A stretch of 64,000 nt of DNA from Erysipelothrix urinaevulpis (GTDB lineage Bacteria; Bacillota_I; Bacilli_A; Erysipelotrichales; Erysipelotrichaceae). The stretch lies in the NCBI RefSeq assembly GCF_009828835.1, contig NZ_WTTB01000001.1, forward strand, positions 248,001-312,000, written 5' to 3'. Positions 13,428 to 58,263 of the stretch are shown piece after piece. Within the stretch, counting starts at the first letter, position 1, and every line of letters begins with the position of its first letter. The notes beneath the pieces were generated by a model. The model was not told the DNA's origin and searched no databases. It saw only the letters and a list, made by a program, of their open reading frames with translations. A program made the translations under genes and the position numbers.

Positions 13428-13444
13428 TGCGATAACGGCTTTTT
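13415..13444. terminator. bidirectional terminator
   Basis: AAAAAGCCGTTA and TAACGGCTTTTT form a 12-bp stem serving the deaminase on the plus strand and the PucR regulator on the minus strand. The deaminase stop codon lies in the loop region. Confidence 0.92.
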
Positions 13445-15816: not shown

Positions 15817-15998
15817 TGAATACCCTCTTTTCTTATGTATAGTTTACCATTTTGAGAATATATGTGCAACATGCACAACAATGACAATAAATTGTACTCT
15901 ATGACCGATGACTTGCTCAGGTTAATGCGTTAAAATATAGATGTAAGATGGTATTGATATAAGTTATAAATACACATAAACAAAGAAAAGGAGATCGT
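15817..15998. promoter_or_regulatory. divergent promoter region with two inverted repeats
   Basis: TGTGCA-ACA-TGCACA (15863-15877) and ACAAT-AA-ATTGT (15884-15895) are perfect inverted repeats placed between the hydrolase/PucR unit and the carbamoyltransferase operon. They are the best candidates here for PucR operators. Confidence 0.55.
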
Positions 15999-17723: not shown

Positions 17724-17724
17724 G

Positions 17725-18981: not shown

Positions 18982-18984
18982 GTT

Positions 18985-26208: not shown

Positions 26209-26253
26209 ATGTTTATCGACGTGCTACTATTTAATCAGGAGGACAAACTATGA
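26209..26253 (+). CDS. 14-residue leader peptide coupled to galE
   Basis: A short frame MFIDVLLFNQEDKL has AAAAGGAGA just upstream of its ATG. Its TGA stop overlaps the galE ATG (ATGA). The galE ribosome binding site AGGAGG is inside it. This suggests translation of the leader feeds translation of galE. No obvious codon bias for attenuation is visible. Confidence 0.5.
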   Translation: MFIDVLLFNQEDKL

Positions 26254-27257: not shown

Positions 27258-27828
27258 GATAAGCCGCATCCGTTCATACAATGAACTCGAAGATGTGAAA
27301 CCATTAAAATTAAATCATGTCCTATGGAATAGCATTAAATCAGTCGATACAACATTAAAACTTGCGTTTGATGACAATTACCTCTATCTTGAAATGCGTG
27401 CACATGAACAAGAACCTCTAACACGTTATTATAAGGATCAAGACCCGGTCTATAAAGACAGTGCAATGGAGTTTTTCTTAAGTTTTGATCAGAAATCTTA
27501 CTTTAACTTTGAGTTTAATCGTACTGGGGCTCTTTTGGCTCAATATGGAACAACAGAAGAACGAATTAAAATTAGTTCAACAAACCTAAAAAGAATCCGT
27601 CGTTCGATTGTATTAGATAAAACTTTTTGGAGTGTCCGATTGGATATTCCTTGGCTTGTTCTTGCCAATCATGAAACGATCGATATCACAAAACCATTGT
27701 GGTTTAATGCTTATAAAATTTCAGAAACAGAAGAGAATTTACATTTCCAAAGTCTTTTCATGATTGAGAGTGAAAAACCCAATTTTCATAGACCAGACTG
27801 TTTTGAGTCTAGAATGCTTGACCGCTAA
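27244..27828 (+). CDS. CBM9-like / DOMON-type carbohydrate-binding protein without signal peptide
   Basis: About 194 residues with the layout of family-9-like carbohydrate-binding domains: LKLAFDDNYLYLEMRAHE, KDSAMEFFLSFD, YFNFEFNRTGALL, WSVRLDIPW and a closing WFNAYKISE. Such domains are usually secreted parts of larger enzymes; here it is a lone protein with no signal peptide or lipobox. The ATG at 27244 overlaps the end of galE; an alternative ATG at 27208 would add 12 residues. It is co-transcribed with galE. It may bind a glycoside or sugar nucleotide in the cytoplasm, but binding is not shown. Confidence 0.7.
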   Translation: MDTNKISRIRSYNELEDVKPLKLNHVLWNSIKSVDTTLKLAFDDNYLYLEMRAHEQEPLTRYYKDQDPVYKDSAMEFFLSFDQKSYFNFEFNRTGALLAQYGTTEERIKISSTNLKRIRRSIVLDKTFWSVRLDIPWLVLANHETIDITKPLWFNAYKISETEENLHFQSLFMIESEKPNFHRPDCFESRMLDR

Positions 27829-28016: not shown

Positions 28017-29057
28017 ATGAGAAAATATAAGACATTCGGAATAGCACTTCTAGTACTCGTGCTATTAACAGCATGTGGCACCAAAAAGAAAGATAATGGT
28101 GGCGATGCAAATAATGATGGCAAAGATTTACCAGTACTACGTGTAGCGATGATGCCATTCATCAATAGTTTGCCAACTGAATACATTATAGAAAATGGCC
28201 TTGATGTTAAGAACGGTTTCAAAATTGAAAGTACAATGTTCTCAACAGGAGCACCCATGAATGAAGCTGTAGCAGCAGATCTCTGGGATGTTGGTTCAAT
28301 GGGAGCAGCAGCAGTTACAGGTGTTGCGAACTATGACATGATGATTATTGGTGAAGTTTTAGAATCACTTGATGGTCAAGGGATTTTTGCTAAACCAGAT
28401 CATCCAGCAGCAAAAGTAAAAGGAATGAATCCATCATTCCCTAATGTATACGGAGACAAAGATTCTGTAAAAGGGTCAACGATTCTCTTACCAATCGGAA
28501 CAGCACAACACTTTACAGTTCTAAAATGGTTAGAAAAAATCGGATTGAAACAAGAAGATGTCAACATCGTTAACATGGAAACTGTCCAAGCATATCAAGC
28601 GTTGAAAGCAGATCAAGCAGACATGGCATCATTAAACGTACCAACATTCTTTGATGCAGTGAATGATGAGATGGTTCAACTTGGAAACTTAGCTGATTTA
28701 GGAACACGTTATGTTGATATGATTGTCGCTAACCCTAAAGCAGTCGAAGGTAAAGAAGAAATTATTCAAAAGTATATTAATTTAGTCATGGAAGCGAATG
28801 CTGAAATTAATAAAGATAAAGAAAAAGCAGCAGACTTAATGATGGAGTTCTTAAAGAAAAATGGTGTAGAACAAAGTCGTGAGAGTGTTGTTGGTGACTT
28901 AGAACGTGTTAATTTCTTTGAAAAAGATGATTGGAAAGATCGAGAACTTGGCTTATTTGCTAAAGAACTTGGAGAATTCTATATCGGACAAGGACAAATT
29001 GATGCGAGCTTAATGGAAAAATTTGAAACAGCAATTGATCCTAAGTTTACAAAATAA
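28017..29057 (+). CDS. ABC substrate-binding lipoprotein, NitT/TauT type (copy 1)
   Basis: 346 residues with a lipoprotein signal peptide (lipobox LLTAC, Cys 20) and a linker rich in N, D, G and K, then a periplasmic-type fold of the NMT1/SsuA-like family (LPVLRVAMMPFINSLPTEYI, FSTGAPMNEAVAADLWDVG). It is anchored outside the membrane and delivers a small ligand to the permeases at 35054 and 35849. It is about 90 percent identical by eye to the protein at 34004. It is followed by a strong hairpin and then the sulfatase gene, with no permease of its own. The ligand may be a sulfated compound (inference from the neighbours). Confidence 0.9.
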   Translation: MRKYKTFGIALLVLVLLTACGTKKKDNGGDANNDGKDLPVLRVAMMPFINSLPTEYIIENGLDVKNGFKIESTMFSTGAPMNEAVAADLWDVGSMGAAAVTGVANYDMMIIGEVLESLDGQGIFAKPDHPAAKVKGMNPSFPNVYGDKDSVKGSTILLPIGTAQHFTVLKWLEKIGLKQEDVNIVNMETVQAYQALKADQADMASLNVPTFFDAVNDEMVQLGNLADLGTRYVDMIVANPKAVEGKEEIIQKYINLVMEANAEINKDKEKAADLMMEFLKKNGVEQSRESVVGDLERVNFFEKDDWKDRELGLFAKELGEFYIGQGQIDASLMEKFETAIDPKFTK

Positions 29058-29068
29058 AAGTTAATGTA

Positions 29069-29103
29069 AGAACAAAAAACAGCAAAGACTGTTTTTTGTT
29101 CTA
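29069..29103 (+). terminator. 14-bp hairpin between the binding-protein and sulfatase genes
   Basis: AGAACAAAAAACAG and CTGTTTTTTGTTCT form a perfect stem with a 6-base loop. The T-rich 3' arm is not followed by a separate U tract, so it may act as a partial terminator or as a 3'-end stabiliser giving more binding protein than sulfatase. Confidence 0.7.
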
Positions 29104-29124
29104 TACGTGAAAGGAAATAAGAAA

Positions 29125-30543
29125 ATGAAACAACCTAATATTATTTTTATCCTAGCGGATGACCTTGGACCTTGGGCTTTGGGAACAAGTGGCAATGAGG
29201 ATATCATAACGCCAAATATTGATCAACTTGCAGAAGAAGGAATCAAGTTTGATGATTTTTTCTGTGCTTCGCCTGTTTGTTCACCGGCAAGAGCTTCATT
29301 GATGACTGGTAAAATACCAAGTCAGCATGGTGTTCATGATTGGGTTCAAGATGGTGAAGGACTTGAAGAAATTGAATACCTTGAAGGACAAGTTGCTTAT
29401 ACTGATATTTTAACTCAACATGGATATCGTTGTGGATTATCGGGAAAATGGCATTTAGGGAAAAGTTCAAAAGTTCAAAAAAGCTTTGATCACTTCTTTG
29501 CTCACAAATCAGGTTCAGGTCCCTATTACAATGCACCATTCTACCGAAATGGTAAATTTGAAATAGCTGAAGGTTATGTGACGGATGTGATTACAGATGA
29601 TGCGATTCACTTTATCAACGAAACACATACCATGGATAAGCCATTCTATCTTTCAGTTGCTTATACTGCACCTCATTCACCTTGGATCAACAACCATCCC
29701 CAAGAATACCTAGATTTATACAAAGACTGTGCATTTAAGAGTATTCCTGATGATCAACGTCATCCCGATGCTATTTATTTAACGGACATGGTAGAGGAAG
29801 ATTTACATGGAAACTTGAGTGGCTACTTTGCTGCAACAACAGCCATGGACACCAATATTGGTAAAATTATCGATACCTTGAATGATTTAGGGATTAAAAA
29901 AGACACTTTAATTATCTTTTCAAGTGATAATGGTTTTAGTTGTGGACAACATGGGTATTGGGGAAAAGGAAATGGAACCTATCCCATCAATATGTACGAT
30001 GAATCTGTAAAAGTTCCATTCATTGTAAGTCATGAAGGGTATACTCCGAAAGGACTTGTTTCAAAAGAACTTTTATCTGCGTATGATTTTTTTCCAACAA
30101 TTTTAGACTATGTTGGGATTGATTATGAGCTTGATAACAGTTATCCTGGTAAAAGTTTTGCCTCCAGTTTAAGAACTGGTTCATCAACAAAACGGGATTA
30201 TGTCTTTGATGAGTATGGTCCTAACCGCATGATTCGAAGTGAAGACTATAAATATATTAAACGATATCCTGTTGGGCCTGATGAATTATATAATTTAAAC
30301 GAGGATCCAAAGGAGTATAATAATTTAATAAAAGAGTATAAAGATATGTATCATGAGGTTGCGAATGTGCTAAGATTTGATTTAGAACGTTGGTTCTTTA
30401 AATATGTGAACCCTGAAATTGATGGTGCCAAAGAAGCAGTCTATGGTTCAGGACAAGTCAACAAAGCTGGCCTTTGGTCAAAAGGAAAAGTAAGCCATGC
30501 AGATGCGGACTTCGTCATAAGAGAAGAACACAAAAGCCAATAG
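29125..30543 (+). CDS. Cys-type sulfatase, predicted cytoplasmic
   Basis: About 472 residues of the alkaline-phosphatase/sulfatase superfamily. Metal-binding PNIIFILADDLGPW, the activation motif C-S-P-A-R at Cys 52 (the Cys converted to formylglycine), KWHLGKS, and FSSDNGFSCGQHG are all present. There is no signal peptide (it begins MKQPNIIFILAD), unlike most polysaccharide sulfatases, so desulfation should occur in the cytoplasm. A radical-SAM maturation enzyme is encoded at 41015. The start at 29125 follows AAAGGAAATAAG; a GTG at 29107 is less likely. Substrate likely a small sulfated sugar (inference); choline sulfate is another possibility. Confidence 0.92.
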   Translation: MKQPNIIFILADDLGPWALGTSGNEDIITPNIDQLAEEGIKFDDFFCASPVCSPARASLMTGKIPSQHGVHDWVQDGEGLEEIEYLEGQVAYTDILTQHGYRCGLSGKWHLGKSSKVQKSFDHFFAHKSGSGPYYNAPFYRNGKFEIAEGYVTDVITDDAIHFINETHTMDKPFYLSVAYTAPHSPWINNHPQEYLDLYKDCAFKSIPDDQRHPDAIYLTDMVEEDLHGNLSGYFAATTAMDTNIGKIIDTLNDLGIKKDTLIIFSSDNGFSCGQHGYWGKGNGTYPINMYDESVKVPFIVSHEGYTPKGLVSKELLSAYDFFPTILDYVGIDYELDNSYPGKSFASSLRTGSSTKRDYVFDEYGPNRMIRSEDYKYIKRYPVGPDELYNLNEDPKEYNNLIKEYKDMYHEVANVLRFDLERWFFKYVNPEIDGAKEAVYGSGQVNKAGLWSKGKVSHADADFVIREEHKSQ

Positions 30544-30559
30544 GCGAAAGGATAATCAT

Positions 30560-32344
30560 ATGAAGGATAAACGTAAAAAAAAGCAATTTAATTCAATGAG
30601 AAATCATCTGTTTTTTGCATACTTTTTTACGTTTTTACTTTTTATCGCTGTTGTGTTTTTATCGTTGATAAATGTTACGAAACAATCGTTATTTAAAGAA
30701 ATATCAGCGTCAAGAAAAGACGTTCTAAAGCAAGTCAGTGAACGTGCCAATGTTGTTAAAAACTCCAGTATTACTGCTTTAAACCTAATGAGCTATGATG
30801 GTTATATTGTTGAGCAGTTTAAACAAGAGAGTGTGGATAATGATGAAGCATTAAGAGATTACATCAACAATCAACAAAAGACATACAACCATGTTTTTAA
30901 TGATGTAAATATTAAGTACAATGTTATCATTATGTCTAACAATGGTTTTAATTATAATTTTGAAGAACGTGACTATGACTATGTAAATTTAAAAAATCAA
31001 TTATGGTTTAAGAATATTTATGATAAGAATGGCGACATTACTTTCATTAGTAGTTTCAATGATAAATTTGGAAGTGGTGAAGACAAATATGTCTTTAGTG
31101 CTTCAAGACAATTGAAGGATGAAAATGGAGAAGATTTAGCAACAATCATGATCACAGTGAGTGAAACTTACCTTCGGCGATTGTATGAACCCTTGCTTGA
31201 TGAAAACAGTATCATCTACATTGTTGATCGAAACGGGAATATTATCTCTCACCAAGATCAATCTTTTTTAGGGTTAAACTATTTTAGTCACGATAACTTT
31301 GCGAATTTATATCCTGAGTCAGATTATTTAATTATTAATAAAAGTCATGGTGATTATCTATTTTCGATGGTCCATGATGAAGCAACGGGTTGGACAATTA
31401 TAGAAGAAACATCAACTCGTTATGTTTTTAATGAAGCATATCAAACGATTAATTACATTATCTTTGCCATGGTTATCTGTGTACTTGTTGCCTTATTTAT
31501 TTCGTATTATGTGAGTCGACATATCTCACAACCATTGTACGATTTAGCAAAATCAATGAAAAAATTGGAAGCGGGTAATTTTGATATCCGCAGTGATATT
31601 AAATCATACAATGAGGTGAACGACCTCAGTACTACATTTAATGAAATGGTAATGCAAATAGACGAACTCTTAAAAACAATTGTGACCCATGAGTCTTATC
31701 GTAAAGATTTAGAAATGAACTTCCTTAGAGCGCAAATCAATCCTCATTTCTTATACAACACTCTTTTCTCAATTCGTTGTATGGCAGAAATGGATCGAAA
31801 AGATAAACTTTTGGATATGATTGATGCTTTCACCGGTCTATTGAATTCAACCTTCTCCTCTGACACCAGTTTAGTTACGGTCGAAAAGGAATTAGAATCA
31901 ACAGAAAAGTATTTACGTTTACAACAAATACGATATGAAGACCGTTTTATTTTTGAGATAGAAGTAGAAGAAGATTTACTAAAAGAAGAAGTTCCTGTCC
32001 TGATTCTACAACCAATTGTGGAAAACTCAATCTTTCATGGTATTGAGCCTAAACATGATTATGGTGGGATAACGATTCATGTTTATTCGTTAAATGAATC
32101 ATTTTTCTCAATTGATATTATTGATAATGGAATCGGTATTAGCGACACTACAATAGAAAAAATAAAAGGAAGTCTTGCGGACTTTTCCCTTCAACCCAGT
32201 GAATCGATTGGTTTAGTGAATGTGGCCAATAGAATTCACTTAACATACAATGGCGAAGGTAAGTTTGATATTATCAGCGAAAAACACGTAGGCACAATTA
32301 TTCGACTTATTATTCCCAAGACAAACAAAAAGGAGAGCATATGA
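30560..32344 (+). CDS. YesM-type sensor histidine kinase
   Basis: 594 residues. Order: a first membrane helix (about 20-42), a large extracellular Cache-like sensor region to about 295, a second helix (about 298-320), HAMP, then the His_kinase domain with QINPHFLYNT (phospho-His about 396) and an ATPase domain (ENSIFHGIEP, DIIDNGIG). Kinases of this type sense carbohydrates or act with binding proteins. It overlaps the response-regulator gene by four bases. It probably controls this uptake cluster. Confidence 0.92.
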   Translation: MKDKRKKKQFNSMRNHLFFAYFFTFLLFIAVVFLSLINVTKQSLFKEISASRKDVLKQVSERANVVKNSSITALNLMSYDGYIVEQFKQESVDNDEALRDYINNQQKTYNHVFNDVNIKYNVIIMSNNGFNYNFEERDYDYVNLKNQLWFKNIYDKNGDITFISSFNDKFGSGEDKYVFSASRQLKDENGEDLATIMITVSETYLRRLYEPLLDENSIIYIVDRNGNIISHQDQSFLGLNYFSHDNFANLYPESDYLIINKSHGDYLFSMVHDEATGWTIIEETSTRYVFNEAYQTINYIIFAMVICVLVALFISYYVSRHISQPLYDLAKSMKKLEAGNFDIRSDIKSYNEVNDLSTTFNEMVMQIDELLKTIVTHESYRKDLEMNFLRAQINPHFLYNTLFSIRCMAEMDRKDKLLDMIDAFTGLLNSTFSSDTSLVTVEKELESTEKYLRLQQIRYEDRFIFEIEVEEDLLKEEVPVLILQPIVENSIFHGIEPKHDYGGITIHVYSLNESFFSIDIIDNGIGISDTTIEKIKGSLADFSLQPSESIGLVNVANRIHLTYNGEGKFDIISEKHVGTIIRLIIPKTNKKESI

Positions 32345-33852
32345 AAATACTAATTGCAGATGATGAACGCTTAATCACAGAATGGCTCGAGTTTTGCTTT
32401 GTTGATTTAGAAGGGATCGAAATTGTTGGTATCGCTAAAAATGGTCAAGAAGCGCTTGAACTATTCAACGCACATCATCCCGATGTTGTTTTAAGTGATA
32501 TTAAGATGCCAGTGATGAATGGTTTAGAACTACTGACTCAAATTAAATCCATTGAACCCAATACGTATGTCGTTATGTTGACAGCTTATTCTGAATTTGA
32601 ATTTGCTCGTGAAGCGATTCGCAACCATGCCGATGATTATTTTTTGAAAACAGAGATGAATAAAGAAAAAATTCAAGAATATTTTAAAAATCTTGAACTT
32701 AAAGATTATTCAGATGTTCAACAAGGGCCGAATAATCATCCAATTATTAAACAAATATTATTAAAGAAAGAAGCCTTATCAGAAGACGATATTCTTAGTT
32801 TAAAAGAACAAATGGTTAATACTAAAATGAATAATTTTGTGGCGTTGTCATTTTGGAATAAGGATATTGTGGAAAACAGGATCTATTTAACTGAACTATT
32901 TAAGGAAAAGTATCAGATTCTACATCAATTTGAAAGCAATAAATATGTGTATACGATCATTATTTCACTGACAAACTATATTAGTGAAATGGATCGACTT
33001 CAAGAAATTAACTCATTAGAACAGATTATAAAGTCAACAGATTGCTTAGTTTCAGGGGTGAGTGCGCTTCATGATACGATAAAAACTGTGAATCTATCAA
33101 TCTATGAATCGATTCATTCTTTAATGTTAACATTTTATGACCAACGTAAAGTAATCCAACTTTTCAATCGTAAAAATAGTATTGTTGAAATACAACGCCA
33201 AGAGAATGCTAAAGACTTTGAGTTAACTCAATTTTATCAAAAAATTATTACATCAAGAATCTCTGAGCGAAGTAACAGTATTGATGAACTATTGGAATTT
33301 GTTGAAGTAAACCAGAATAGTAATGTGATCTTATTTAAAAAGATATGTTTAGATATTGCTTCAATTTTATACGGTAACTTAGCAAATCAAAACATTGATT
33401 ATTCTTTGCAAGAACTAAATCATGTCAAACAAACGATCCATGAAGGCAAGAATTTTATGATCGTTAAAGATGCATTATTAGCATATAATGAAAGTTTTTC
33501 AATCGGGGAAACGGTTGATCGAAGTCGTTTATCGATGCCGATTGCAAGAGCCTTGAAGTTTATTGAACAGCATTACCATGAACCGATTAGTTTAGACATT
33601 GTTGCTGATGCTGTCAATCTCAATCCTGAATATTTATCACGAAGTTTTAAAAAAGAAATGAATAAAACCTATTCGGCGTTCCTCTCTGAATTACGATTGG
33701 AAAAAGCGAGAGTTCTTTTATTAGATACAACGTATCAAGTTCAGGAAGTTGCGAATGCGGTAGGATACTATAACGTTAGCTATTTTTCAACATTGTTTAA
33801 GAAGGAATTTGGGATTAACCCTTATGAATATCGTAAACAAAACCATCGATAG
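32341..33852 (+). CDS. YesN/AraC-type response regulator
   Basis: 503 residues: receiver domain with phospho-Asp 53 (VVLSDIKMPVMNG) and Lys in FLKTEMN; a long middle region to about 400; and a C-terminal AraC-type double HTH (EPISLDIVADAVNLNPEYLSRSFKKEM and VQEVANAVGYYNVSYFSTLFKKEFG). Partner of the YesM-type kinase (four-base overlap). It likely activates the binding-protein/transport genes. A terminator follows before the second binding-protein gene. Confidence 0.93.
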   Translation: MKILIADDERLITEWLEFCFVDLEGIEIVGIAKNGQEALELFNAHHPDVVLSDIKMPVMNGLELLTQIKSIEPNTYVVMLTAYSEFEFAREAIRNHADDYFLKTEMNKEKIQEYFKNLELKDYSDVQQGPNNHPIIKQILLKKEALSEDDILSLKEQMVNTKMNNFVALSFWNKDIVENRIYLTELFKEKYQILHQFESNKYVYTIIISLTNYISEMDRLQEINSLEQIIKSTDCLVSGVSALHDTIKTVNLSIYESIHSLMLTFYDQRKVIQLFNRKNSIVEIQRQENAKDFELTQFYQKIITSRISERSNSIDELLEFVEVNQNSNVILFKKICLDIASILYGNLANQNIDYSLQELNHVKQTIHEGKNFMIVKDALLAYNESFSIGETVDRSRLSMPIARALKFIEQHYHEPISLDIVADAVNLNPEYLSRSFKKEMNKTYSAFLSELRLEKARVLLLDTTYQVQEVANAVGYYNVSYFSTLFKKEFGINPYEYRKQNHR

Positions 33853-33918
33853 TCAAAATATTTAAAGTATAATCAAATAAATTGACGTCAAAGATTTCAA
33901 ATATAAAAATAATGAAAT

Positions 33919-33947
33919 TAACCTCAAAAGAATGAGGTTTTTTTTTA
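33919..33947 (+). terminator. intrinsic terminator after the two-component genes
   Basis: AACCTCA and TGAGGTT with a 6-base loop and a long T run. Confidence 0.85.
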
Positions 33948-33969
33948 TGTCAATCTTCTTATAATAACA

Positions 33970-33985
33970 ATGTAAAGGGTTACAT
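33970..33985 (+). promoter_or_regulatory. CRE-like inverted repeat before the second binding-protein gene
   Basis: ATGTAA-AGGG-TTACAT is a perfect inverted repeat. Its core matches the catabolite-responsive consensus TGWNANCGNTNWCA at all but one position (G for the central C). It lies just before AGGAGG. Confidence 0.5.
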
Positions 33986-34003
33986 GCCCTGTAGGAGGAA
34001 AGA

Positions 34004-35044
34004 ATGAAACATATAAAAAAAATAACAATAACATTATTGGTCGTCTTGTTATTGACAGCATGTGGTACAAAAAATGCTGATAATAAAGGAGAAGCAAACA
34101 ATGATGGTAAAGATTTACCAGTCCTGAGAGTTGCGATGATGCCTTTTATAACAAGTTTACCAACTGAGTACATTATTGAGAATGGTCTTGATGTTAAAAA
34201 TGGTTTCAAGATTGAAAGTACAATGTTCTCAACAGGAGCACCGATGAATGAAGCAGTAGCGGCAGATCTATGGGATGTTGGTGCTATGGGTGCGGCAGCA
34301 GTAACGGGTGTTGCTAATTATGACATGATGATTATTGGTGAAGTTCTAGAGTCACTTGATGGTTTAGGTATTTTCACAAAACCAGCTCATCCTGCAGCTA
34401 AAGTGAAAGGATTGAATCCATCCTTCCCAAATGTATACGGTGATAAAGAATCTGTTAAAGGTTCAACAATTCTCTTGCCTATTGGTACAGCACAGCACTT
34501 CACAACGTTAAAATGGTTGGAAAAAATTGGTTTAAAACAAGAAGATGTCAATATTGTGAATATGGAAACTGTTCAAGCTTATCAAGCTCTAAAGGCTGAC
34601 CAAGCTGATATGGCTGCATTGAATGTTCCAACATTCTTTGATGCTGTGAATGATGACATGGTTCAACTTGGAAATTTAGCTGACTTAGGAACACGTTATG
34701 TTGACATGATTGTTGCCAACCCCAAAGCAGTTGAAGGAAAGCAAGAATTAATTCAAAAATATGTAAACTTAGTGATGGAAGCAAATGCTGAAATAAATAA
34801 AGACAAAGAAAAAGCTGCTGACCTCATGATGGAATTCTTAAAGAAAAATGGTGTTGAACAAAGTCGTGAAAGCGTTGTCGGAGATTTAGAACGTGCAAAC
34901 TTTATTGAAAAAGATGCATGGAAAGATCGTGACCTTGGTTTATTCGCTAAAGAACTTGGAGAATTCTACATTGCCCAAGGACAAATTGATGCAAGTTTAA
35001 CAGAAAAATTTGAGACATCAATTGATTCACAATTCGTTAAGTAG
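34004..35044 (+). CDS. ABC substrate-binding lipoprotein, NitT/TauT type (copy 2)
   Basis: 346 residues, the same length as copy 1 at 28017, with lipobox LLTAC and nearly the same mature sequence. Differences cluster in the signal peptide, the linker (KNADNKGEAN against KKKDNGGDAN) and scattered surface-type positions; many synonymous changes separate the genes. It is directly followed by the two permeases and two ATPases, so it is the transporter-linked copy. Ribosome binding site AGGAGGAAAG. Confidence 0.92.
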   Translation: MKHIKKITITLLVVLLLTACGTKNADNKGEANNDGKDLPVLRVAMMPFITSLPTEYIIENGLDVKNGFKIESTMFSTGAPMNEAVAADLWDVGAMGAAAVTGVANYDMMIIGEVLESLDGLGIFTKPAHPAAKVKGLNPSFPNVYGDKESVKGSTILLPIGTAQHFTTLKWLEKIGLKQEDVNIVNMETVQAYQALKADQADMAALNVPTFFDAVNDDMVQLGNLADLGTRYVDMIVANPKAVEGKQELIQKYVNLVMEANAEINKDKEKAADLMMEFLKKNGVEQSRESVVGDLERANFIEKDAWKDRDLGLFAKELGEFYIAQGQIDASLTEKFETSIDSQFVK

Positions 35045-35053
35045 GTGAAAAAT

Positions 35054-35845
35054 ATGAAAAAAAATAAAGACGGATTAAAATACACATTAATATCAGTCGC
35101 TTCAGTTTCTACTGTCCTGTTTGTTTGGTGGTTAGTTACAGATGGTTTACATCTTGTATCGCATTTAATCTTACCGAGTCCAGGAAAAGTGGTTGATACA
35201 TTTATCTATAAATTAATGGGCGGTAAAAACCCTGATGGTGCATCATTGTTTGAGCATATCTGGGCAAGTTTACAAATTGCTTTAGGTGGTTATTTCCTGG
35301 GAGTCGTGATTGGTGTGCCACTTGGAATTGGCATGGCATGGAGTCGTAAATTTGAACGATTTGCGAAACCACTCTTTGATATCATTCGTCCAATTCCAGC
35401 CCTTGCTTGGATTCCATTAATGATTTTATGGTTAGGGATTGGTTATTGGTCAAAAGTTGGAATTATTTTCTTTGCAGCCTTTATCAGTGCAACCATAAAC
35501 TCTTATGCAGGGATTAAACAGACAAGAACAGTTCACTTGTGGGTTGCTCGTACATTTGGAGCAACTAATCGACAAATGTTATTTAAAGTAGCAATCCCAA
35601 CAGCTTTACCAATGATCTTTACAGGATTACGTTTAGCACTAGGGTCATCCTGGGTTGCCTTGGTTGCCGCTGAATTACTAGCAGCTACAAAAGGTGTTGG
35701 ATATATGATTCAAGTGGGTCGAATGTTAGGAAGACCCGATATTATCATTGTTGGAATGATTACGATTGGTGTTGTTGGCTATTTAATGTCTTCAGCCTTG
35801 GAGTATTTACAGAAAAAAGTCATTCGTAGAAAAGAGGTGGCATAA
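35054..35845 (+). CDS. ABC transporter permease, NitT/TauT type (first)
   Basis: About 263 residues with roughly six membrane helices. The EAA-type coupling loop is ARTFGATNRQMLFKVAIPTALPMIFTGLR, and PIPALAWIPLMILWLGIG is the family signature. It has a long loop near 45-65. The ATG at 35054 has GTAGGTG before it; GTG at 35045 is less likely. It pairs with the second permease at 35849 as a heterodimer. Confidence 0.9.
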   Translation: MKKNKDGLKYTLISVASVSTVLFVWWLVTDGLHLVSHLILPSPGKVVDTFIYKLMGGKNPDGASLFEHIWASLQIALGGYFLGVVIGVPLGIGMAWSRKFERFAKPLFDIIRPIPALAWIPLMILWLGIGYWSKVGIIFFAAFISATINSYAGIKQTRTVHLWVARTFGATNRQMLFKVAIPTALPMIFTGLRLALGSSWVALVAAELLAATKGVGYMIQVGRMLGRPDIIIVGMITIGVVGYLMSSALEYLQKKVIRRKEVA

Positions 35846-35848
35846 TTT

Positions 35849-36631
35849 ATGAATTTTGAAAATTTTAGTGAAAAGAAAAAAACAGCCATCATGACGCTTG
35901 TTGCATTTGGTCTTTTCCTTACCGTATGGGAATTATTGGCTCAGTTTACAAGTGCAGGCATGTTCTTGCCACCAGCCAGTAAAATTATCAGTGAATTTTT
36001 AAAAAGTTTTGTGGTTCCAATTGGTCGTCATACAATGCCAACCCATATTGGAATTAGTTTATATCGTGTAGGAATTGCCTTTGCTCTTGCAACGGTTGTT
36101 GGAATTATGTTAGGTGTTTCTATGGGTTACTCAAAAACAGCAGAAGCAATTATTAAGCCAATTGTTGAGTTTATCCGTCCAATTCCACCTTTAGCATGGG
36201 TCCCTTTATCAATACTATGGTTTGGTTTAGGTAATGAAAGTAAATTCTTTATTATTTTCTTAGGATGTTTCAACTTTATTTTAGTCAATACATACGATGG
36301 AACAAAAAGTGTTGATCAAGAATTATTAGGAGCAGCACGTATGTTAGGGGCCAATGAACGTCAAGTATTCTTCAAAGTTGTCTTACCTGCATCTGTTCCT
36401 TATATATTTGCTGGATTGCAAATTGCGATTACAGCTGGCTGGTCAGCCGTTGTTGGAGCTGAAATGATTCGCTCAGACGAAGGGGTTGGTTGGTTAATTG
36501 TTATGGGAATGTCAACAGGGAATACAGTACAGATTATGGTGGGTATGCTAGCAATTGGAATTGTTGGATATTTACTTGCAAGCGGAATGGCTTTACTAGA
36601 AGGGAAATTACTCAAATGGAATCAAAGATAA
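35849..36631 (+). CDS. ABC transporter permease, NitT/TauT type (second)
   Basis: 260 residues, same family as the preceding permease, with PIPPLAWVPLSILWFGLGNES and the coupling loop ARMLGANERQVFFKVVLPASVPYIFAGLQ. GAGGTGG precedes the ATG, and the end overlaps the first ATPase gene by 16 bases. Having two different permeases and two different ATPases in one NitT/TauT system is uncommon, since homodimers are usual. Confidence 0.9.
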   Translation: MNFENFSEKKKTAIMTLVAFGLFLTVWELLAQFTSAGMFLPPASKIISEFLKSFVVPIGRHTMPTHIGISLYRVGIAFALATVVGIMLGVSMGYSKTAEAIIKPIVEFIRPIPPLAWVPLSILWFGLGNESKFFIIFLGCFNFILVNTYDGTKSVDQELLGAARMLGANERQVFFKVVLPASVPYIFAGLQIAITAGWSAVVGAEMIRSDEGVGWLIVMGMSTGNTVQIMVGMLAIGIVGYLLASGMALLEGKLLKWNQR

Positions 36632-37386
36632 AAGATATACTAGTTTGCCAAAATGTTTCTAAAACATTTCCTGGCTATAATGGAAAAACTGAGAATCATG
36701 TCATTGATGACATTAGCTTTTCAGTAAAGGAGAATGAGTTCTTAGTTATATTTGGACCAGGTCAAAGTGGAAAGTCAACGTTGCTTAACATATTAGCAGG
36801 CCTTGAAAAACCAAGCAGTGGAAAAGTGTTTGATAATGGAGAATTGGTGACAAAACCTAACCCTAAACGAGGAGTTGTTTATCAACGAATGGCATTATTT
36901 CCATGGCTTACAGTAAAAGGGAATGTCGAATTTGGACCTAAAGTTAGAAAAATAGATAAGATAAAACGTGATGAAATCACCAAGCATTATATCGATCTTG
37001 TAGGGTTAGATGGCTTTGAAAAGAGTTATCCTAATCAACTATCAGGTGGGATGCAACAACGTGTAGGGATTGCAAGAGCCTATGCAAACAACCCGGATAT
37101 CTTATTATTAGATGAACCATTTGGTCACTTAGATGCTCAAACCCGTTACTTAATGCAAGAAGAACTGCAAAGAATTTGGGAAACTGAAAAAAGAACGGTC
37201 ATCTTTATTACGAATAATATTGAAGAGGCGGTATACTTAGCAGACAGAATTATTCTTGTCACAAATACACCTGCAAAAATCAAAAAAGAATATAAAATTG
37301 ATTTGCCATTCCCGCGTAGTTATGTTGATCCAGAATTTCTACGTTTACGACAAGAAATCACTGACAACATGGATAAGTCATTGTAG
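36616..37386 (+). CDS. ABC transporter ATPase A: normal signature, switch His replaced by Asn
   Basis: About 256 residues. Walker A is GPGQSGKST, Q-loop YQRMALFPW, signature LSGGMQQRVGIARAY, Walker B ILLLDEPFGHLD. The H-loop reads FITNNIEEA, so the usual switch histidine is Asn. Start at 36616 inside the end of the permease gene, with AGAAGGGA upstream. It fits NitT/TauT (SsuB-like) ATPases. Paired with ATPase B (37399), it would supply a good signature but a defective H-loop. Confidence 0.9.
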   Translation: MESKIKDILVCQNVSKTFPGYNGKTENHVIDDISFSVKENEFLVIFGPGQSGKSTLLNILAGLEKPSSGKVFDNGELVTKPNPKRGVVYQRMALFPWLTVKGNVEFGPKVRKIDKIKRDEITKHYIDLVGLDGFEKSYPNQLSGGMQQRVGIARAYANNPDILLLDEPFGHLDAQTRYLMQEELQRIWETEKRTVIFITNNIEEAVYLADRIILVTNTPAKIKKEYKIDLPFPRSYVDPEFLRLRQEITDNMDKSL

Positions 37387-37398
37387 GAGGTAGAAAAA

Positions 37399-38142
37399 AT
37401 GAGCGAAAATGTAAAAGTAAAAGTCAATAATTTAACAAAGAAATTCGGTGATTTACTAGTCTTAGATGATATATCATTTGACGTTAAAAAAGGTGAGTTT
37501 CTCTGTATCGTTGGGCCAACAGGCTGTGGTAAAACAACTTTTTTAAATAGTATTACAAAGCTTTATGAACCAACATCAGGTGAGATTCTCGTTGATGGTG
37601 AAGTCGTCGATCTTGATAAGCACAACGTCGCCTATATCTTCCAAGAATATTCTACAATGCCATGGTTAACGGTTGAAGAGAATGTACGCTTTGGACTTGA
37701 TATTAAAGGAATTAAGGGCGAAAAAGCTCAAAGTCTTGTTGATGAGTATATTGATATTGTCGGATTGAATGAATACCGTGATTATTATCCTGATCAATTA
37801 TCAACCAGTATGTTACAACGAGTGGTTATTGCAAGAGCTTTTGCAACAGAACCAGAGTTGCTTTTAATGGACGAACCGTATGGACAACTTGATATCGAAT
37901 TACGTTTTAGATTAGAAGATGAATTAATTAAGCTTTGGGAACGTACAGGAACAACTGTTATCTTCATCACACATAATATAGAAGAAGCAGTTTATCTTGG
38001 CGAAAGAATCCTAGTGCTGACCAATAAACCGACTAAAATCAAAGAGGAAATCATTAATGACTTGCCACGACCACGTGATATCCTCTCAAAAGATTTTGTT
38101 GATTTACGAAATAAAGTAACTGACCTTATCAAATGGTGGTAA
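37399..38142 (+). CDS. ABC transporter ATPase B: degenerate signature motif
   Basis: 247 residues. Walker A GPTGCGKTT, Walker B LLLMDEPYGQLD and the H-loop FITHNIEEA are intact, but the signature is LSTSMLQRVVIARAF instead of LSGGQ-type. GTAGGAGGTAG precedes the ATG. Together with ATPase A one composite ATP site would be complete (Walker/His of B with signature of A) and the other doubly degenerate. Confidence 0.9.
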   Translation: MSENVKVKVNNLTKKFGDLLVLDDISFDVKKGEFLCIVGPTGCGKTTFLNSITKLYEPTSGEILVDGEVVDLDKHNVAYIFQEYSTMPWLTVEENVRFGLDIKGIKGEKAQSLVDEYIDIVGLNEYRDYYPDQLSTSMLQRVVIARAFATEPELLLMDEPYGQLDIELRFRLEDELIKLWERTGTTVIFITHNIEEAVYLGERILVLTNKPTKIKEEIINDLPRPRDILSKDFVDLRNKVTDLIKWW

Positions 38143-38143
38143 G

Positions 38144-39034
38144 GTGAACAATCTCTTTGTAGGCGTAGATCTTGGCGGTACAAATATTGAAATAGCAATC
38201 ATGAATGGTGAATCTATATCCAGACTATCCTTTCCTACCGATACGACACATAACGGAAGAAACATCATTCCTGATATTGCTAAACACATCCAAGAATACG
38301 CAGATAATAACACCGGGGTCATAAGAGCAGTTGGTCTTGCGATACCTGGTGTTATTGATGATAGTGGCTATACAGAAATATGTGTCAATTTAAATTGGCA
38401 TAAAAAAAATGTAATTAAAGAATTTAAAGATTATTTGGATACAAATGTTTACGTAATGAATGATGCCAATGCATCTGCTTTGGGTGAATACTACTATGGT
38501 TTAGCTAAAGGGTTTCCAAACTCTATGACAATTACACTTGGAACCGGAGTTGGGTCAGGATTAATCCTCAATCATCAGATTCATCAAGGATCTCATGCAC
38601 TTGCAGGAGAATTTGGCCATATTCACATTGAAACAGATCAGAAAACAACATGTCCATGTGGTGGACAAAATTGTTTAGAAACCTATGTTTCAAAAAGCGG
38701 GCTTGAGCGTCAAGTGAGTGAACCAATCACAGTTAAAGAAATGTTTGATTTAGCCAAGGGTGGCGATGAACAATATCGATCGTTATTAGAGAAAAACTTT
38801 AAACATTTATCACATGCTATTTTAAATCTTTACGTCGTTTTGGACTTAGATCTCGTTGTGATTAGTGGTGGAATTTCTAATGCAGGCGATTTCTTATTGG
38901 AATTAATTACCCAGGAAATGGTGAAGTATAAACCTGATTATCTTCCAACACCAATCGTTAAACAGTCAAGGTTAATCGAAGATGCTGGTGTGATGGGTAT
39001 GTTGGGGTATGTAAAAGAAAAGGAGAGTCTATGA
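38144..39034 (+). CDS. ROK-family sugar kinase
   Basis: 296 residues. The phosphate-binding VGVDLGGTNIEIA, the catalytic region NDANASALGEYYYG with LGTGVGSGLI, and the ROK zinc motif CPCGGQNCLETY are complete, and no HTH is present, so it is a kinase rather than a repressor. ROK kinases act on glucose, N-acetylglucosamine, N-acetylmannosamine and related sugars. Start GTG at 38144, one base after the ATPase B stop, with only a GGTGGTAAG-type upstream region. It overlaps the next gene by four bases. Confidence 0.9.
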   Translation: MNNLFVGVDLGGTNIEIAIMNGESISRLSFPTDTTHNGRNIIPDIAKHIQEYADNNTGVIRAVGLAIPGVIDDSGYTEICVNLNWHKKNVIKEFKDYLDTNVYVMNDANASALGEYYYGLAKGFPNSMTITLGTGVGSGLILNHQIHQGSHALAGEFGHIHIETDQKTTCPCGGQNCLETYVSKSGLERQVSEPITVKEMFDLAKGGDEQYRSLLEKNFKHLSHAILNLYVVLDLDLVVISGGISNAGDFLLELITQEMVKYKPDYLPTPIVKQSRLIEDAGVMGMLGYVKEKESL

Positions 39035-39927
39035 AAACTAGTTTGGTAGTACTTGCTGCTGGTATGGGTTCTAGATATGGTGGCTTAAAACAGTTGGACA
39101 GTATGGATCAACAGGGTCATACTCTGCTTGATTTCTCAGTCTATGATGCTTATAAAGTAGGATTTGATGAAGTTGTTTTCATCATTCGTGAATCCATTAA
39201 AGATGAATTTCATGAAAAGATTGGTAAACCAATGAGTTCAATGCTTTCGGTGAAATATGTTATGCAAGATAGTAATACAAATCCACTTAACATGAAGATT
39301 GAACGCGAAAAGCCCTTAGGAACAGGCCATGCTTTATATTGTGCAAAAGATGTTGTGAAATCAAATTTCGCAATTATTAACGCTGATGATTTTTATGGAA
39401 GAGAAACCTTAGAAACAATTCATCGATTTTTAATTGACAATAAAATTGAGAATGAGCATATTTTAGCGCCTTTTGAATTGCAAAAAACTATTAGTGAAAA
39501 AGGAAGCGTTTCTCGTGGCGTTTGTAGTGTGGAACAAGGGAAGTTACAAGCAATTGTTGAAGAAACAGATATTATAACTAAGGATGGAAAAATATTCGTA
39601 CGTAAAGATAATTCATTAGAAGAAATGGATCCTAAAACTTTAGTTTCTATGAATTGTTGGGGATTTAAACCAAGCATTTTTGATATTATCTCTGAAGATT
39701 TAACACGATTCTTAAAAAATGACTACTTAGAAAATATTGAAAAATCGGAGTATTTTTTACCAACTGTTGTCGATAGAAATCTAAATAAAACCATGAGTGT
39801 AGACGTTAAACCAAGCATGAGTCAATGGTTTGGGGTCACATATCAAGAAGATAAAATTATCGTTATGAATGAAATAAAAAAATTAAAAGAGGAAGGAGTT
39901 TATCCAGAAAAATTATGGGAACAATAA
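39031..39927 (+). CDS. sugar-phosphate nucleotidyltransferase-like protein
   Basis: 298 residues. N-terminal VVLAAGMGSRYGGLKQL is the nucleotide-binding loop of NTP_transferase proteins; INADDFYG is the metal-binding Asp region. It resembles the nucleotidyltransferases found next to N-acetylhexosamine 1-kinase-like genes, which make UDP-sugars from sugar-1-phosphates. It overlaps the ROK gene by four bases and the kinase gene by 13. Ribosome binding site AAAGGAGAG. Confidence 0.85.
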   Translation: MKTSLVVLAAGMGSRYGGLKQLDSMDQQGHTLLDFSVYDAYKVGFDEVVFIIRESIKDEFHEKIGKPMSSMLSVKYVMQDSNTNPLNMKIEREKPLGTGHALYCAKDVVKSNFAIINADDFYGRETLETIHRFLIDNKIENEHILAPFELQKTISEKGSVSRGVCSVEQGKLQAIVEETDIITKDGKIFVRKDNSLEEMDPKTLVSMNCWGFKPSIFDIISEDLTRFLKNDYLENIEKSEYFLPTVVDRNLNKTMSVDVKPSMSQWFGVTYQEDKIIVMNEIKKLKEEGVYPEKLWEQ

Positions 39928-41018
39928 AAGAAGAAACTAGAGTTCAAAATGCCATTGATGCATTTAACTTTCAAGGTGAACAACTCGCTTGGATACCTTA
40001 TGGAAATGGTCACATTAACGACACTTATAAAGTGGATTTTAGTGAGAAAAATTATATTCTACAAAGAATCAATCATCATACATTTAAAGATCCAGAATCG
40101 TTAGTTAAAAATATAGAATACGTTACGAAACATATTAAAGAAAAAATGCCTGAAGGCAGTAACTTTGATCGAGAAGTTCTACAATTAATTTCGTTGAAAA
40201 ATGACAATTCATATTTATTTAATGACGAGTATGGAAATTATTGGCGTGCTTATTTATTTGTTGAAGACAGTGTTAGTTTTGATCAAGTTGAGAACAAGGA
40301 GCAATTTTACGAAAGTGCCTATGCTTTTGGGTTGTTTCAATATTACTTATCAGATTTTGATGCAACGGTATTAAGTGAAACAATTAAGGATTTCCACAAT
40401 ACACCCGTTCGCTTACAAAATCTCAAAGATGCCATAGAAAAAGACCCTCTTGATCGTTTGAAAAATGTTGAAGAAGAGGTTAATTTTGCACTAGAACGTA
40501 GTGAGTTCACTCATTTGTTCACTCAATTATTCCAAGAAGGAACATTAAAGAAACGTGTTACACATAATGACACAAAGCTCAATAACGTACTTCTTGATAA
40601 GGATAACCATAAAGCACTGTGTGTTATTGATTTAGATACTGTGATGCCAGGATTTGTTTTGGATGATTTTGGAGACTCAATTCGTTTCGGTGCAAGTACT
40701 GGATTAGAAGATGAGAAAGACTTAAGTAAAATAACCATTGATTTAGATTTATATGAAGCATACATACAAGGTTTCCTTAAAGGTGCACAAAACAAGATTG
40801 AAAATACTGAAATCGAACTGTTCCCTGAAGCTTCAAAAATGATGACGTTAGAATGTGGAATGAGATTCTTAACAGATTATCTCCTTGGTGATACATATTT
40901 CAAAACACATTATGATGATCATAACTTAGTAAGAACTCGTACACAATTTAAACTTGTTGCTGAGATGGAAAATCAATGGGAACAAATGAAAACAATTACT
41001 CATAAATATTTACAATGA
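39915..41018 (+). CDS. phosphotransferase resembling N-acetylhexosamine 1-kinase (NahK)
   Basis: 367 residues of the aminoglycoside/choline-kinase fold. YGNGHINDTYKV, YILQRINHHTFKDPESLVKNI, the catalytic VTHNDTKLNNVLLD and metal-binding CVIDLDTVMPGFVLDDFGDSIRFGAST match NahK-like kinases closely. They phosphorylate GlcNAc or GalNAc at C1. The ATG is inside the preceding gene, with GGAAGGAG rather far upstream. It is followed with a four-base overlap by the sulfatase-maturating enzyme. Confidence 0.86.
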   Translation: MGTIKEETRVQNAIDAFNFQGEQLAWIPYGNGHINDTYKVDFSEKNYILQRINHHTFKDPESLVKNIEYVTKHIKEKMPEGSNFDREVLQLISLKNDNSYLFNDEYGNYWRAYLFVEDSVSFDQVENKEQFYESAYAFGLFQYYLSDFDATVLSETIKDFHNTPVRLQNLKDAIEKDPLDRLKNVEEEVNFALERSEFTHLFTQLFQEGTLKKRVTHNDTKLNNVLLDKDNHKALCVIDLDTVMPGFVLDDFGDSIRFGASTGLEDEKDLSKITIDLDLYEAYIQGFLKGAQNKIENTEIELFPEASKMMTLECGMRFLTDYLLGDTYFKTHYDDHNLVRTRTQFKLVAEMENQWEQMKTITHKYLQ

Positions 41019-42139
41019 ACAAGCTCAAAGACGTTACTGTCTTAATCAAGCCCAGTTCATCAAGTTGTGATAATGTTTGCTCTTATTGTTTCTATGATGA
41101 TGTGAGTCAGTGTAGAAAAGTGAAGTCATATGGATTAATGGATGATGAGACTCGAAAGAATATCATCAAAAATACCCTTAAAGATAAAACACTAGAACAT
41201 GTTAATTTCGCATTTCAAGGTGGAGAACCAACATTAATAGGCATTGATTATTATTATAGTTTTATTGAAGAAGTAAATAAAGAAAATCATAATGCAGAGA
41301 TTACTTACGCCATTCAGACGAATGGCGTAAGTTTAAATGAGGAATGGCTTAATTTTTTTAAGAAACATAATTTTTTGGTTGGAATATCAATTGATGGTTA
41401 TAAAGAGAACCACGATAAACACCGTTTTTTTCATCGTAAAGGTTCCTTTGACCATGTCTATGCATCATTAAAACTAATTCAAAAATATGAATTGGATTAT
41501 AACGTGTTGACAGTGTTAACGAAGAATCTAGCCAACAATCCAGATAAACTTTTTGATTTTTATTTGGAAAACAATCTATCCAATATTCAAATTATTGAAT
41601 GCCTTCCCGATTTTAATCAGACAGTTTATGAGAGTCCATTTGCTTGCACACCAGAATTATACGACAGTTTTTATAAACAATTCTATAAACGATGGTACGA
41701 ACAATTAGAGTTGGGAAATTATATGAGCATTAGTTTGTTTGATGATTGCATTCGTTTGATGAATCAAAGAATGCCCATTACTTGTGGTCGATATGGAGGC
41801 TGTAAACCACAAGCAGTCATTGAAGCAGATGGCAAATGTTACCCTTGTGATTTTTATGTGATGGATGGCTTTGAAACGGGAAAACTTCATGAAGAAGAAC
41901 TCAGTGAAATTCTCCAACCAAGTCGATATTATTCATTTATAAAGCGTCCACAAACGACAATGAGTCAGTGTAAACAATGTCCCTACTTCAACTGGCTATG
42001 TCATGGAGGTTGTCCACGTATGAAAGAAACATTTATCAATGAGAAACAATGTTCCTACCAACGGCTTCTCCAACTTTTTATTGACAATAAAAAAGCAATT
42101 AATCAACAGATGACATTGATTTATAACAAAGGAAGGTGA
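41015..42139 (+). CDS. anaerobic sulfatase-maturating enzyme (radical SAM)
   Basis: 374 residues. The radical-SAM cluster C18-x3-C22-x2-C25 (CDNVCSYC) and the C-terminal SPASM cysteines (CGRYGGCKPQ, CYPCDFY, CKQCPYFNWLCHGGC) match AtsB/anSME enzymes, which oxidise the active-site Cys or Ser of sulfatases to formylglycine without oxygen. The partner should be the CSPAR sulfatase encoded 12 kb upstream at 29125; no other sulfatase is in the window. It overlaps the kinase gene by four bases. Confidence 0.93.
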   Translation: MNKLKDVTVLIKPSSSSCDNVCSYCFYDDVSQCRKVKSYGLMDDETRKNIIKNTLKDKTLEHVNFAFQGGEPTLIGIDYYYSFIEEVNKENHNAEITYAIQTNGVSLNEEWLNFFKKHNFLVGISIDGYKENHDKHRFFHRKGSFDHVYASLKLIQKYELDYNVLTVLTKNLANNPDKLFDFYLENNLSNIQIIECLPDFNQTVYESPFACTPELYDSFYKQFYKRWYEQLELGNYMSISLFDDCIRLMNQRMPITCGRYGGCKPQAVIEADGKCYPCDFYVMDGFETGKLHEEELSEILQPSRYYSFIKRPQTTMSQCKQCPYFNWLCHGGCPRMKETFINEKQCSYQRLLQLFIDNKKAINQQMTLIYNKGR

Positions 42140-42145
42140 GTTAAA

Positions 42146-42925
42146 ATGGTCGCATTAATTTATGTGTTAATCATCATCGCTGCGAATGTTATTGGTTCAA
42201 TTTCAGGACTTGGTGGAGGCTCTATCATTAAACCAATCCTTGATTTATTTAGGTTTCATTCCGTTGCGGAGATTTCACTTTATTCAAGTGTTGCCGTGTT
42301 TTTGATGTCAATATCATCAACAATGCGTCAAATGAAAAATAAAGTTGACATTGATTGGAATTTTGCATTGCTTAATTCGTTTGGTTCATTTATTGGTGGA
42401 CTCCTAGGTCAAGGTATCTTTGACTTGTTAATGGTGAGTATAAGTAATGAAGCCTATGTGAGTTTAGTTCAAATTACGCTCACAATCATTACCTTGATTA
42501 TTTCATATTACTTGACCCAAAACGAATCGATCAATTTTGGCTTTACGTCTTCTATATCAAAAATATTCGTTGGATTATGTTTAGGATTACTCGCGAGTTT
42601 ACTAGGCATTGGTGGTGGACCGTTAAATGTCGCAATCTTAATGGCATGCTTTGGTGTCGGAATAAGAGAAGCAACAGTTTACTCTATCATTACGATATTC
42701 TTTTCGCAATTATCGAAATTGGGAATGATTGTGATAAGCCAATCATATATAGGTATGGATTTAAAGATGATCTTGTTTATCATTCCTGCAGCGTTATTTG
42801 GTGGCATTTTGGGTGCTAAAATAAGTGGTAAATTAAGCAACGAAAGTATCAAGAAGATCTTTAATCTAGTTCTAATTATTGTCTTCTTTATAAACTGTTA
42901 TAATGCAATTAAAATATTTATATAA
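42146..42925 (+). CDS. TauE/SafE-family sulfite/sulfoacetate-type exporter
   Basis: 259 residues with about eight membrane helices and the duplicated Gly-rich motifs of TauE/SafE: ISGLGGGSIIKPIL in the first half and LLGIGGGPLNVA in the second. The family exports sulfite and organosulfur anions. As the last gene of the cluster, it likely removes the sulfur oxyanion released by the sulfatase (inference). Ribosome binding site GGAAGGTGAG. It ends at a strong terminator. Confidence 0.9.
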   Translation: MVALIYVLIIIAANVIGSISGLGGGSIIKPILDLFRFHSVAEISLYSSVAVFLMSISSTMRQMKNKVDIDWNFALLNSFGSFIGGLLGQGIFDLLMVSISNEAYVSLVQITLTIITLIISYYLTQNESINFGFTSSISKIFVGLCLGLLASLLGIGGGPLNVAILMACFGVGIREATVYSIITIFFSQLSKLGMIVISQSYIGMDLKMILFIIPAALFGGILGAKISGKLSNESIKKIFNLVLIIVFFINCYNAIKIFI

Positions 42926-57901: not shown

Positions 57902-58263
57902 TTTCCAAAATAAATTTGAAAAGCATAGATTCATGTTGAAACATATTTTGTCGAGACTAATCAGTCAATGAAAAGAAAGAACATACAATTAATTTCACTG
58001 ATTAATTTGGACAATCATTTAATGCTGAAGAGATTTTCAATAAGACATATATAACAACAATGCTTCTTGAGCTCATTTCATAAAAAAATGAACCCCTTTA
58101 TTATTGTCTGAAATTTCAGGTTTATATCAAAAAAATCTTCTAGGGTTTTTGAGTCTAAACATTTAATTAAAGAGTGTATGAAGAGTGGGCAGATCAATGA
58201 TTGAGAACAATTCTCTATCAAATCCATTACTTTAAATGAGTGTCTTTTAGGGGAGATGTCAGG
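57902..58263. other. AT-rich intergenic region before the exporter
   Basis: No gene with a plausible start was found in about 360 bases, and no double-glycine bacteriocin precursor on either strand. A possible ribosome binding site GGGGAG at its end serves the exporter gene. Confidence 0.5.

Follow-up and report, generated by a model that had tools for sequence, protein, structure and literature searches.

The window, a 64,000-nucleotide stretch of the Erysipelothrix urinaevulpis genome (1.91 Mb, 24 contigs, 92.84% complete), contains at positions 28017–42925 a gene cluster that probably serves to import a small sulfate-ester sugar intact, most likely an amino sugar, and to desulfate it in the cytoplasm. 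The cluster combines two substrate-binding proteins (SBP1 and SBP2) and a NitT/TauT-like ABC importer with a sulfatase, a YesM/YesN regulatory pair, a ROK-family sugar kinase, a sugar-1-phosphate nucleotidyltransferase (NTase), a NahK-like kinase, an anSME-like sulfatase maturase and a TauE/SafE-family membrane protein, all encoded on the plus strand. An earlier note on this DNA had named this gene set, and open reading frames (ORFs) together with family scans located every member where it had been placed. From SBP2 through TauE, the genes show operon-like packing, with intergenic gaps of −16 to +12 nt and a single nucleotide between the second ATPase gene and the ROK kinase gene. The GC content of the cluster is 34.2%, against 34.0% in the rest of the window, and gives no sign of recent transfer.

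The sulfatase (29125–30543) is a type I (S1) enzyme. It matches PF00884 with 177 bits against a cut-off of 25 (E 7e-52) and carries the C-type maturation motif CSPAR, as do all six of its orthologues described below. We chose the ATG at 29125 as the start of the gene, whose ORF opens with a GTG at 29107. The frame is closed by a stop at 29062, and the first ATG, GTG or TTG after it is this GTG, 45 bases further on; a signal peptide can therefore not be encoded from any of the usual start codons. Moreover, neither the window sulfatase nor any of the three orthologues checked (L031, L033 and L036) showed a hydrophobic segment. Judged by start codons and hydrophobicity, the enzyme is predicted to be cytoplasmic. 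The earlier note had proposed a sulfatase without a signal peptide and had named a signal peptide upstream of the start as the finding that would speak against it; this region holds none.

Both binding proteins, SBP1 (28017–29057) and SBP2 (34004–35044), are putative lipoproteins of the NMT1/SsuA-like type with an N-terminal hydrophobic segment and, by reading, a lipobox (LLTAC in SBP1). PF13379 and PF09084 score above their cut-offs in both, with 29.1 versus 24.7 bits and 28 versus 20.5 bits in SBP1. SBP2 is a duplicate of SBP1, the proteins being 90% identical and the DNA 83% identical over 1057 bp. The two gene copies flank the sulfatase and YesM/YesN genes on either side, and they may differ in ligand. 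SBP2 is followed by two permeases with PF00528 domains (BPD_transp_1; 35045–35845 and 35849–36631) and two ATPases with PF00005 domains (36616–37386 and 37399–38142). The permeases are nearest to the TauC, SaoP, NtrB and SsuC models, all below the equivalog cut-offs: the top NCBIfam model of the first is TauC (193 bits versus a cut-off of 342), and the second reaches 183 bits with SaoP, 162 with TauC and 147 with NtrB. A NitT/TauT-type importer, as the earlier note had it, is thus present, and because the permease scores all lie below cut-off we use 'NitT/TauT-like' as a nearest-family label. SBP1 stays below the curated cut-offs for alkanesulfonate and taurine binding proteins: the SsuA model TIGR01728 gives 60 bits against a cut-off of 163.5 and the TauA model TIGR01729 31.7 against 304.25. 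Domain scans likewise bore out the regulatory pair, a YesM-type sensor histidine kinase (30560–32344; PF06580 (His_kinase), dCache_1, HAMP and HATPase_c) and a YesN-type response regulator (32341–33852; PF00072 (Response_reg) with the AraC output domain PF12833).

The association of importer and sulfatase is conserved in at least six related loci, which were found by scanning contigs with two short peptide patterns in a non-exhaustive search. These belong to Lachnoanaerobaculum gingivalis, Lachnospiraceae oral taxon 107, Hungatella hathewayi, Hungatella sp. UBA5385, H. effluvii and Vagococcus elongatus, the last on a contig of just 13.8 kb. In all six, the sulfatase (58–63% identical to that of the window, with CSPAR) stands together with YesM (35–42%), YesN (32–36%), an SBP, permease 1 (74–80%), permease 2 (70–78%), ATPase 1 (64–73%) and ATPase 2 (79–83%). 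As this core recurs in every related locus, we take importer and sulfatase to form one module, and their co-occurrence with YesM/YesN is not due to chance. A second, diverged version of the entire unit is present in H. hathewayi (SBP 41%, ATPase 2 79%), again comprising importer, sulfatase and YesM/YesN. Each of the six genomes encodes an anSME-like gene at another place, above the curated cut-off in five. No near SBP homologue was found beyond the organism's own genome in the 79 genomes searched or among 392 genomes (own included in both sets); the other matches among the 392 are 23–39% identical. Among 391 genomes of the class of H. hathewayi, three match the SBP at E ≤ 1e-30; one of these is H. 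hathewayi, and the other two carry diverged paralogs. The 392- and 391-genome searches scored at most five candidates per genome, and further matches are possible.

In four of the six related loci (the three Hungatella and Vagococcus), the cluster includes a second sulfatase-like gene with the motif CMPAR or CIPAR, which represents a second cytoplasmic sulfatase family beside the importer (L033 8246–9757, L034 8183–9673, L035 5609–7186 and L036 11073–12560). Solved relatives of the Hungatella protein are weak (best 5g2v, E 1e-19), and homologues with 33–51% identity occur in the other anSME loci L092, L138, L139 and L141. The presence of a second cytoplasmic sulfatase suggests that the cargo of the Hungatella and Vagococcus clusters may be a doubly sulfated sugar. 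Remoter relatives of the importer (SBP about 30% identical) stand beside transketolase and LarA-like genes in L088 and beside aminotransferase, dehydrogenase and FGGY-type genes in L090 (some of these names by reading), and no sulfatase was seen beside either. These contexts hint that the NitT/TauT-like branch may carry carbohydrates, sugar acids or related compounds more widely.

The putative maturase (41015–42139) combines a radical SAM domain (PF04055) with a SPASM domain (PF13186) and has the CxxxCxxC motif, as CDNVCSYC, at residue 18. TIGR03942 (E 3e-89) is the second-best of 52 models and scores 299.5 bits, under its cut-off of 349.45, which is missed by 14 of the 22 anSME matches at E ≤ 1e-60, the window protein included; the top model, another anSME model, gives 301 bits against a cut-off of 441. 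At E ≤ 1e-60, an anSME-like gene occurs in 19 of the 392 genomes, own included. We examined 20 anSME loci in other Bacilli-side genomes, several of them on stretches that end at contig ends, and in 11 a sulfatase lies no more than seven ORFs from the anSME. The N-terminus is clearly non-hydrophobic in nine of these 11 sulfatases, hydrophobic in L129 and borderline in L143. The premise of the earlier note that most glycan sulfatases are secreted is therefore unfit for this group, in which importing first and desulfating inside looks ordinary and the class of importer is what differs. L133, L138, L139 and L140 each place a sulfatase without a hydrophobic N-terminus close to an anSME and a sugar importer, as the window does. 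Here, the importer gene encodes a lactose/cellobiose-type or GalNAc-type EIIC of the phosphotransferase system (above cut-off in L133 and L140 only) and not an ABC importer as in the window.

A parallel exists in the window genome itself, which has five sulfatase-family matches, four of them above the Pfam cut-off. The earlier note had called the anSME the only visible maturation enzyme; this holds within the window but not for the genome, where contig C19 carries a second anSME-like gene. It belongs to a second sulfatase locus (L027, C19:180000–199900, positions 5958–17209) with a CUT1-type SBP and permeases (by reading), a GH112 lacto-N-biose phosphorylase (PF09508, 670.7 bits), NahK, a sulfatase, anSME and TauE. 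Identities to the window counterparts are 55% for NahK, 42% for anSME and 51% for TauE; the sulfatase is just 27% identical. Among solved structures, PDB 9koq (E 9e-114) and 7oz8 (E 1e-77) are close relatives of the C19 sulfatase, which showed no hydrophobic segment, in line with a cytoplasmic location. L142, which comes from another genus of the same family, has two GH112 genes, an importer, an anSME and a sulfatase 49% identical to that of C19. Both loci resemble the window in joining a cytoplasmic sulfatase and an anSME to a sugar importer, and C19 adds NahK and TauE; unlike the window, they have a CUT1-type ABC importer and a GH112 phosphorylase. The cargo of the C19 locus is probably sulfated lacto-N-biose or galacto-N-biose, and there seem to be two pathways in this organism that import and desulfate N-acetylhexosamine (HexNAc)-type sugars.

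Downstream of the importer, the ROK-family kinase (38144–39034; PF00480, E 4e-60) reaches 175 bits with TIGR00744, under the 260-bit cut-off. The NTase (39031–39927) matches PF00483, and the NahK-like N-acetylhexosamine 1-kinase (39915–41018; PF01636) aligns with solved NahK (PDB 4wh1 and 4ocj) at E 2e-91 over residues 17–361 of 367, nearly its full length. NTase matches occur in 72 of the 79 genomes (own included; a few weak). Of 29 other NTase loci, each of about 3.9 kb, seven have NTase and NahK as separate neighbours, all with GH112, and two have them apparently fused (open frames of 675 and 672 aa); no NahK was seen in the remaining 20. NTase and NahK thus often form a HexNAc salvage pair among the kin genomes examined. 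nagA scores above cut-off in all seven genomes (window genome and six related), and in H. hathewayi it directly follows anSME–TauE. Upstream of the cluster lies galE (26250–27257, plus strand; TIGR01179 459.9 bits, above cut-off), a possible partner that encodes a UDP-hexose 4-epimerase; between the two, at 27241–27828, is a CBM9-like protein (PF16011) with no evident signal peptide.

We propose the following route. SBP1 and SBP2 would feed the importer with its two permeases and two ATPases, and YesM/YesN would sense the substrate or a related signal. As expected from its family, anSME would oxidise the cysteine within the CSPAR motif to formylglycine, and the sulfatase would then remove the sulfate from the imported molecule. 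The freed sugar would most likely be a HexNAc, either N-acetylglucosamine (GlcNAc) or GalNAc, which NahK could phosphorylate at C1. NTase would perhaps convert the HexNAc-1-phosphate to a UDP-sugar, with GalE epimerising it in the case of GalNAc. Alternatively, the ROK kinase would phosphorylate the HexNAc and lead it into catabolism via NagA. The sulfate would be waste and may exit through TauE. As for the supply of the sugar, the GH20 frame of the window genome is by reading without a signal peptide, so extracellular release may depend on other organisms or other enzymes.

Three lines of evidence favour the intact import and cytoplasmic desulfation that the earlier note had put forward: the sulfatase lacks a signal peptide, importer and sulfatase stay together in all six relatives, and the same genome holds the parallel GH112 locus. 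That an amino sugar is the cargo is the most likely reading of gene context rather than of the active site. A more tentative proposition, which we hold at somewhat less than even confidence, is that sulfated amino sugars are the dedicated cargo of this whole NitT/TauT-like branch, with its two permeases, two ATPases, conserved cytoplasmic sulfatase and YesM/YesN control.

The first of several points that weigh against our interpretation concerns the sulfatase family. By profile, the nearest solved relatives are the N-acetylglucosamine-6-sulfatase 5g2v and the mucin-desulfating sulfatase 7p24, which we take to be the S1_11 enzymes BT4656 and BT3177 of Bacteroides thetaiotaomicron. S1_11 recognition is described as a His plus Asp/Arg triad for O3 and O4 (PMC10154612). 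In a sequence alignment, the GWFDKRFMYEE stretch of 5g2v falls on a WGKGNGT stretch of the window sulfatase family, and RHYGIR is replaced by a GPNRMIR stretch. The Asp and Arg of FDKR are presumably the Asp/Arg pair of the triad, a mapping made by sequence. As these recognition stretches are not conserved, we assign the sulfatase neither to S1_11 nor to another S1 subfamily, and we do not assign GlcNAc-6-sulfate (GlcNAc-6S) as the substrate. Structure prediction was of no help, the AlphaFold2 models of SBP2 (mean pLDDT 51) and of the sulfatase (45) being too poor for fold comparison. Nor does the transporter sequence itself give any sign of a sugar: its permeases score best with taurine, SaoP and nitrate models, and the closest solved SBP relative in a profile search is TauA, at only E 7e-5. 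Furthermore, NTase, NahK, anSME and TauE were found in none of the six examined flanks of the related loci, and ROK is present there only as a 25%-identical protein in V. elongatus. Finally, TauE stands next to anSME in just four of 25 other anSME loci examined, some of which end at contig edges.

In one alternative, two modules are joined by position, an importer–sulfatase–YesM/YesN module for some sulfate ester and a HexNAc salvage and maturation block that mainly serves the C19 GH112 locus. In agreement with this, the neighbourhood search that the earlier note had called for recovered the core in every relative but not the HexNAc/anSME/TauE block, and NTase and NahK were seen joined to a NitT/TauT-like importer and sulfatase in the window genome only. 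All seven of the kin loci in which NTase and NahK stand side by side as separate genes also have GH112, and the C19 locus has NahK, with no NTase in the 19.9 kb read. However, the close packing from SBP2 through TauE makes a single transcript likely, the C19 locus includes an anSME, a TauE and a NahK of its own, and a second NTase homologue exists among unrelated genes at C11:198040. On balance, we consider the two-module alternative unlikely. The formation of HexNAc-1-phosphate and a UDP-sugar, as suggested in the earlier note, accordingly has a mixed standing: the NahK match, the nine NTase–NahK pairs among 29 loci and the GH112 beside seven of them speak for it, and the absence of the block beside the importer in all relatives speaks against it.

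NitT/TauT importers with cytoplasmic sulfatases occur in sulfur scavenging. In Pseudomonas, the ats genes combine the AtsA sulfatase with the AtsRBC importer to scavenge sulfur from aryl and alkyl sulfates. These genes resemble the window in pairing a NitT/TauT-like importer with a cytoplasmic sulfatase but are not known to include sugar kinases, anSME–TauE or YesM/YesN. If the cluster worked in this manner, sulfate esters would be imported and cleaved for their sulfur and not for a sugar, which would fit the sulfonate-, taurine- and nitrate-type models that SBPs and permeases score best with. Against this, no ATP-sulfurylase (PF01747) match was found in any of the seven genomes (window and six related), whereas five of 14 control genomes were positive, and PF01507 gives one weak match in the window genome (24.4 bits versus a cut-off of 22.5). 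Released sulfate thus seems unusable and is probably waste, a conclusion to be read with the 92.84% completeness of the genome and with the stronger PF01507 matches of the three Hungatella genomes. The module is also accompanied by sugar kinases and by the TauE protein (42146–42925; PF01925 111.9 bits versus 32.6, nine hydrophobic segments), a putative sulfur-oxyanion exporter and hence a plausible candidate for the exit of sulfate. We therefore regard sulfur scavenging as quite improbable. TauE adjoins anSME in both loci of the window genome, in two of the 20 anSME loci outside it (L136 and L138) and in two of the five related genomes with anSME flanks examined (H. hathewayi and V. elongatus); a general rule that TauE goes with anSME was rejected. 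We give still less weight to the idea that the ligand is no sugar but another sulfate ester, for example choline sulfate or an aryl sulfate, since the arylsulfatase model PRK13759 (195 bits) and the choline-sulfatase model TIGR03417 (188.4 bits) remain far below their cut-offs of 481 and 433.45, the sulfatase gene has sugar kinase and YesM/YesN genes for company, and NagA is next to anSME–TauE in H. hathewayi.

Import and intracellular desulfation of a sulfated amino sugar has a described counterpart in Bifidobacterium breve. The membrane-protein family DUF81, which we take to be TauE/SafE, forms part of this comparison. B. breve UCC2003 is reported to grow on GlcNAc-6S (PMC6045583), which is released by the B. 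bifidum sulfoglycosidase BbhII (PMC9599254, PMC11186840). Its locus Bbr_0846–0856 comprises nagA1, nagB2, a ROK kinase, a NagC/XylR regulator, an aldose epimerase, a transport protein, atsA2, atsB2, a DUF81 membrane protein and two further genes (PMC5144078), and AtsR2 represses the cluster for GlcNAc-6S use (PMC9599254). Like the window, this locus brings together an importer, a sulfatase with adjacent anSME, a DUF81 protein and a ROK kinase. The earlier statement that no described pathway has this gene set was thus too strong. However, the B. breve importer is annotated as a glucose/fructose transport protein and the regulator is of the NagC/XylR type, in contrast to the NitT/TauT-like ABC importer and YesM/YesN of the window, and the table rows seen list neither NahK nor NTase, both of which the window has. 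We therefore regard the window cluster as a variant of the B. breve scheme. A different arrangement is found in the B. thetaiotaomicron pathway, whose heparin/heparan sulfatases are described as periplasmic (PMC10154612). What appears to be new is the importer class for this job and the spread of the module. In the literature searched, which left out many subscription papers, we found no report joining a NitT/TauT importer to a carbohydrate sulfatase. In P. aeruginosa, the NitT/TauT genes PA2327–PA2329 are listed only a few genes away from PA2332–PA2336, which include a probable sulfatase, with no functional link stated in the portions seen (PMC8274868).

Elsewhere in the window, the region 10213–20699 encodes, by reading only, a permease, an amidohydrolase, a deaminase, an FdrA-like protein and a carbamate kinase together with PucR-type regulators and resembles an anaerobic purine/ureide degradation cluster. 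Also by reading only, 58240–62391 encodes a peptidase-containing ABC exporter and an HlyD-like accessory protein, as for bacteriocin export.

When primary degraders break down mucin and glycosaminoglycans, the sulfated sugars set free must have users. If the importer branch is indeed dedicated to sulfated amino sugars, it would, to our knowledge, be the first case of carbohydrate transport by a NitT/TauT family and would provide a route by which Gram-positive scavengers acquire sulfated sugars that other microbes release. The conserved importer–sulfatase module would further give named candidates for sulfated-sugar use in Lachnospiraceae and lactic-type Firmicutes, together with a binding protein that lends itself to direct measurement of its ligand.

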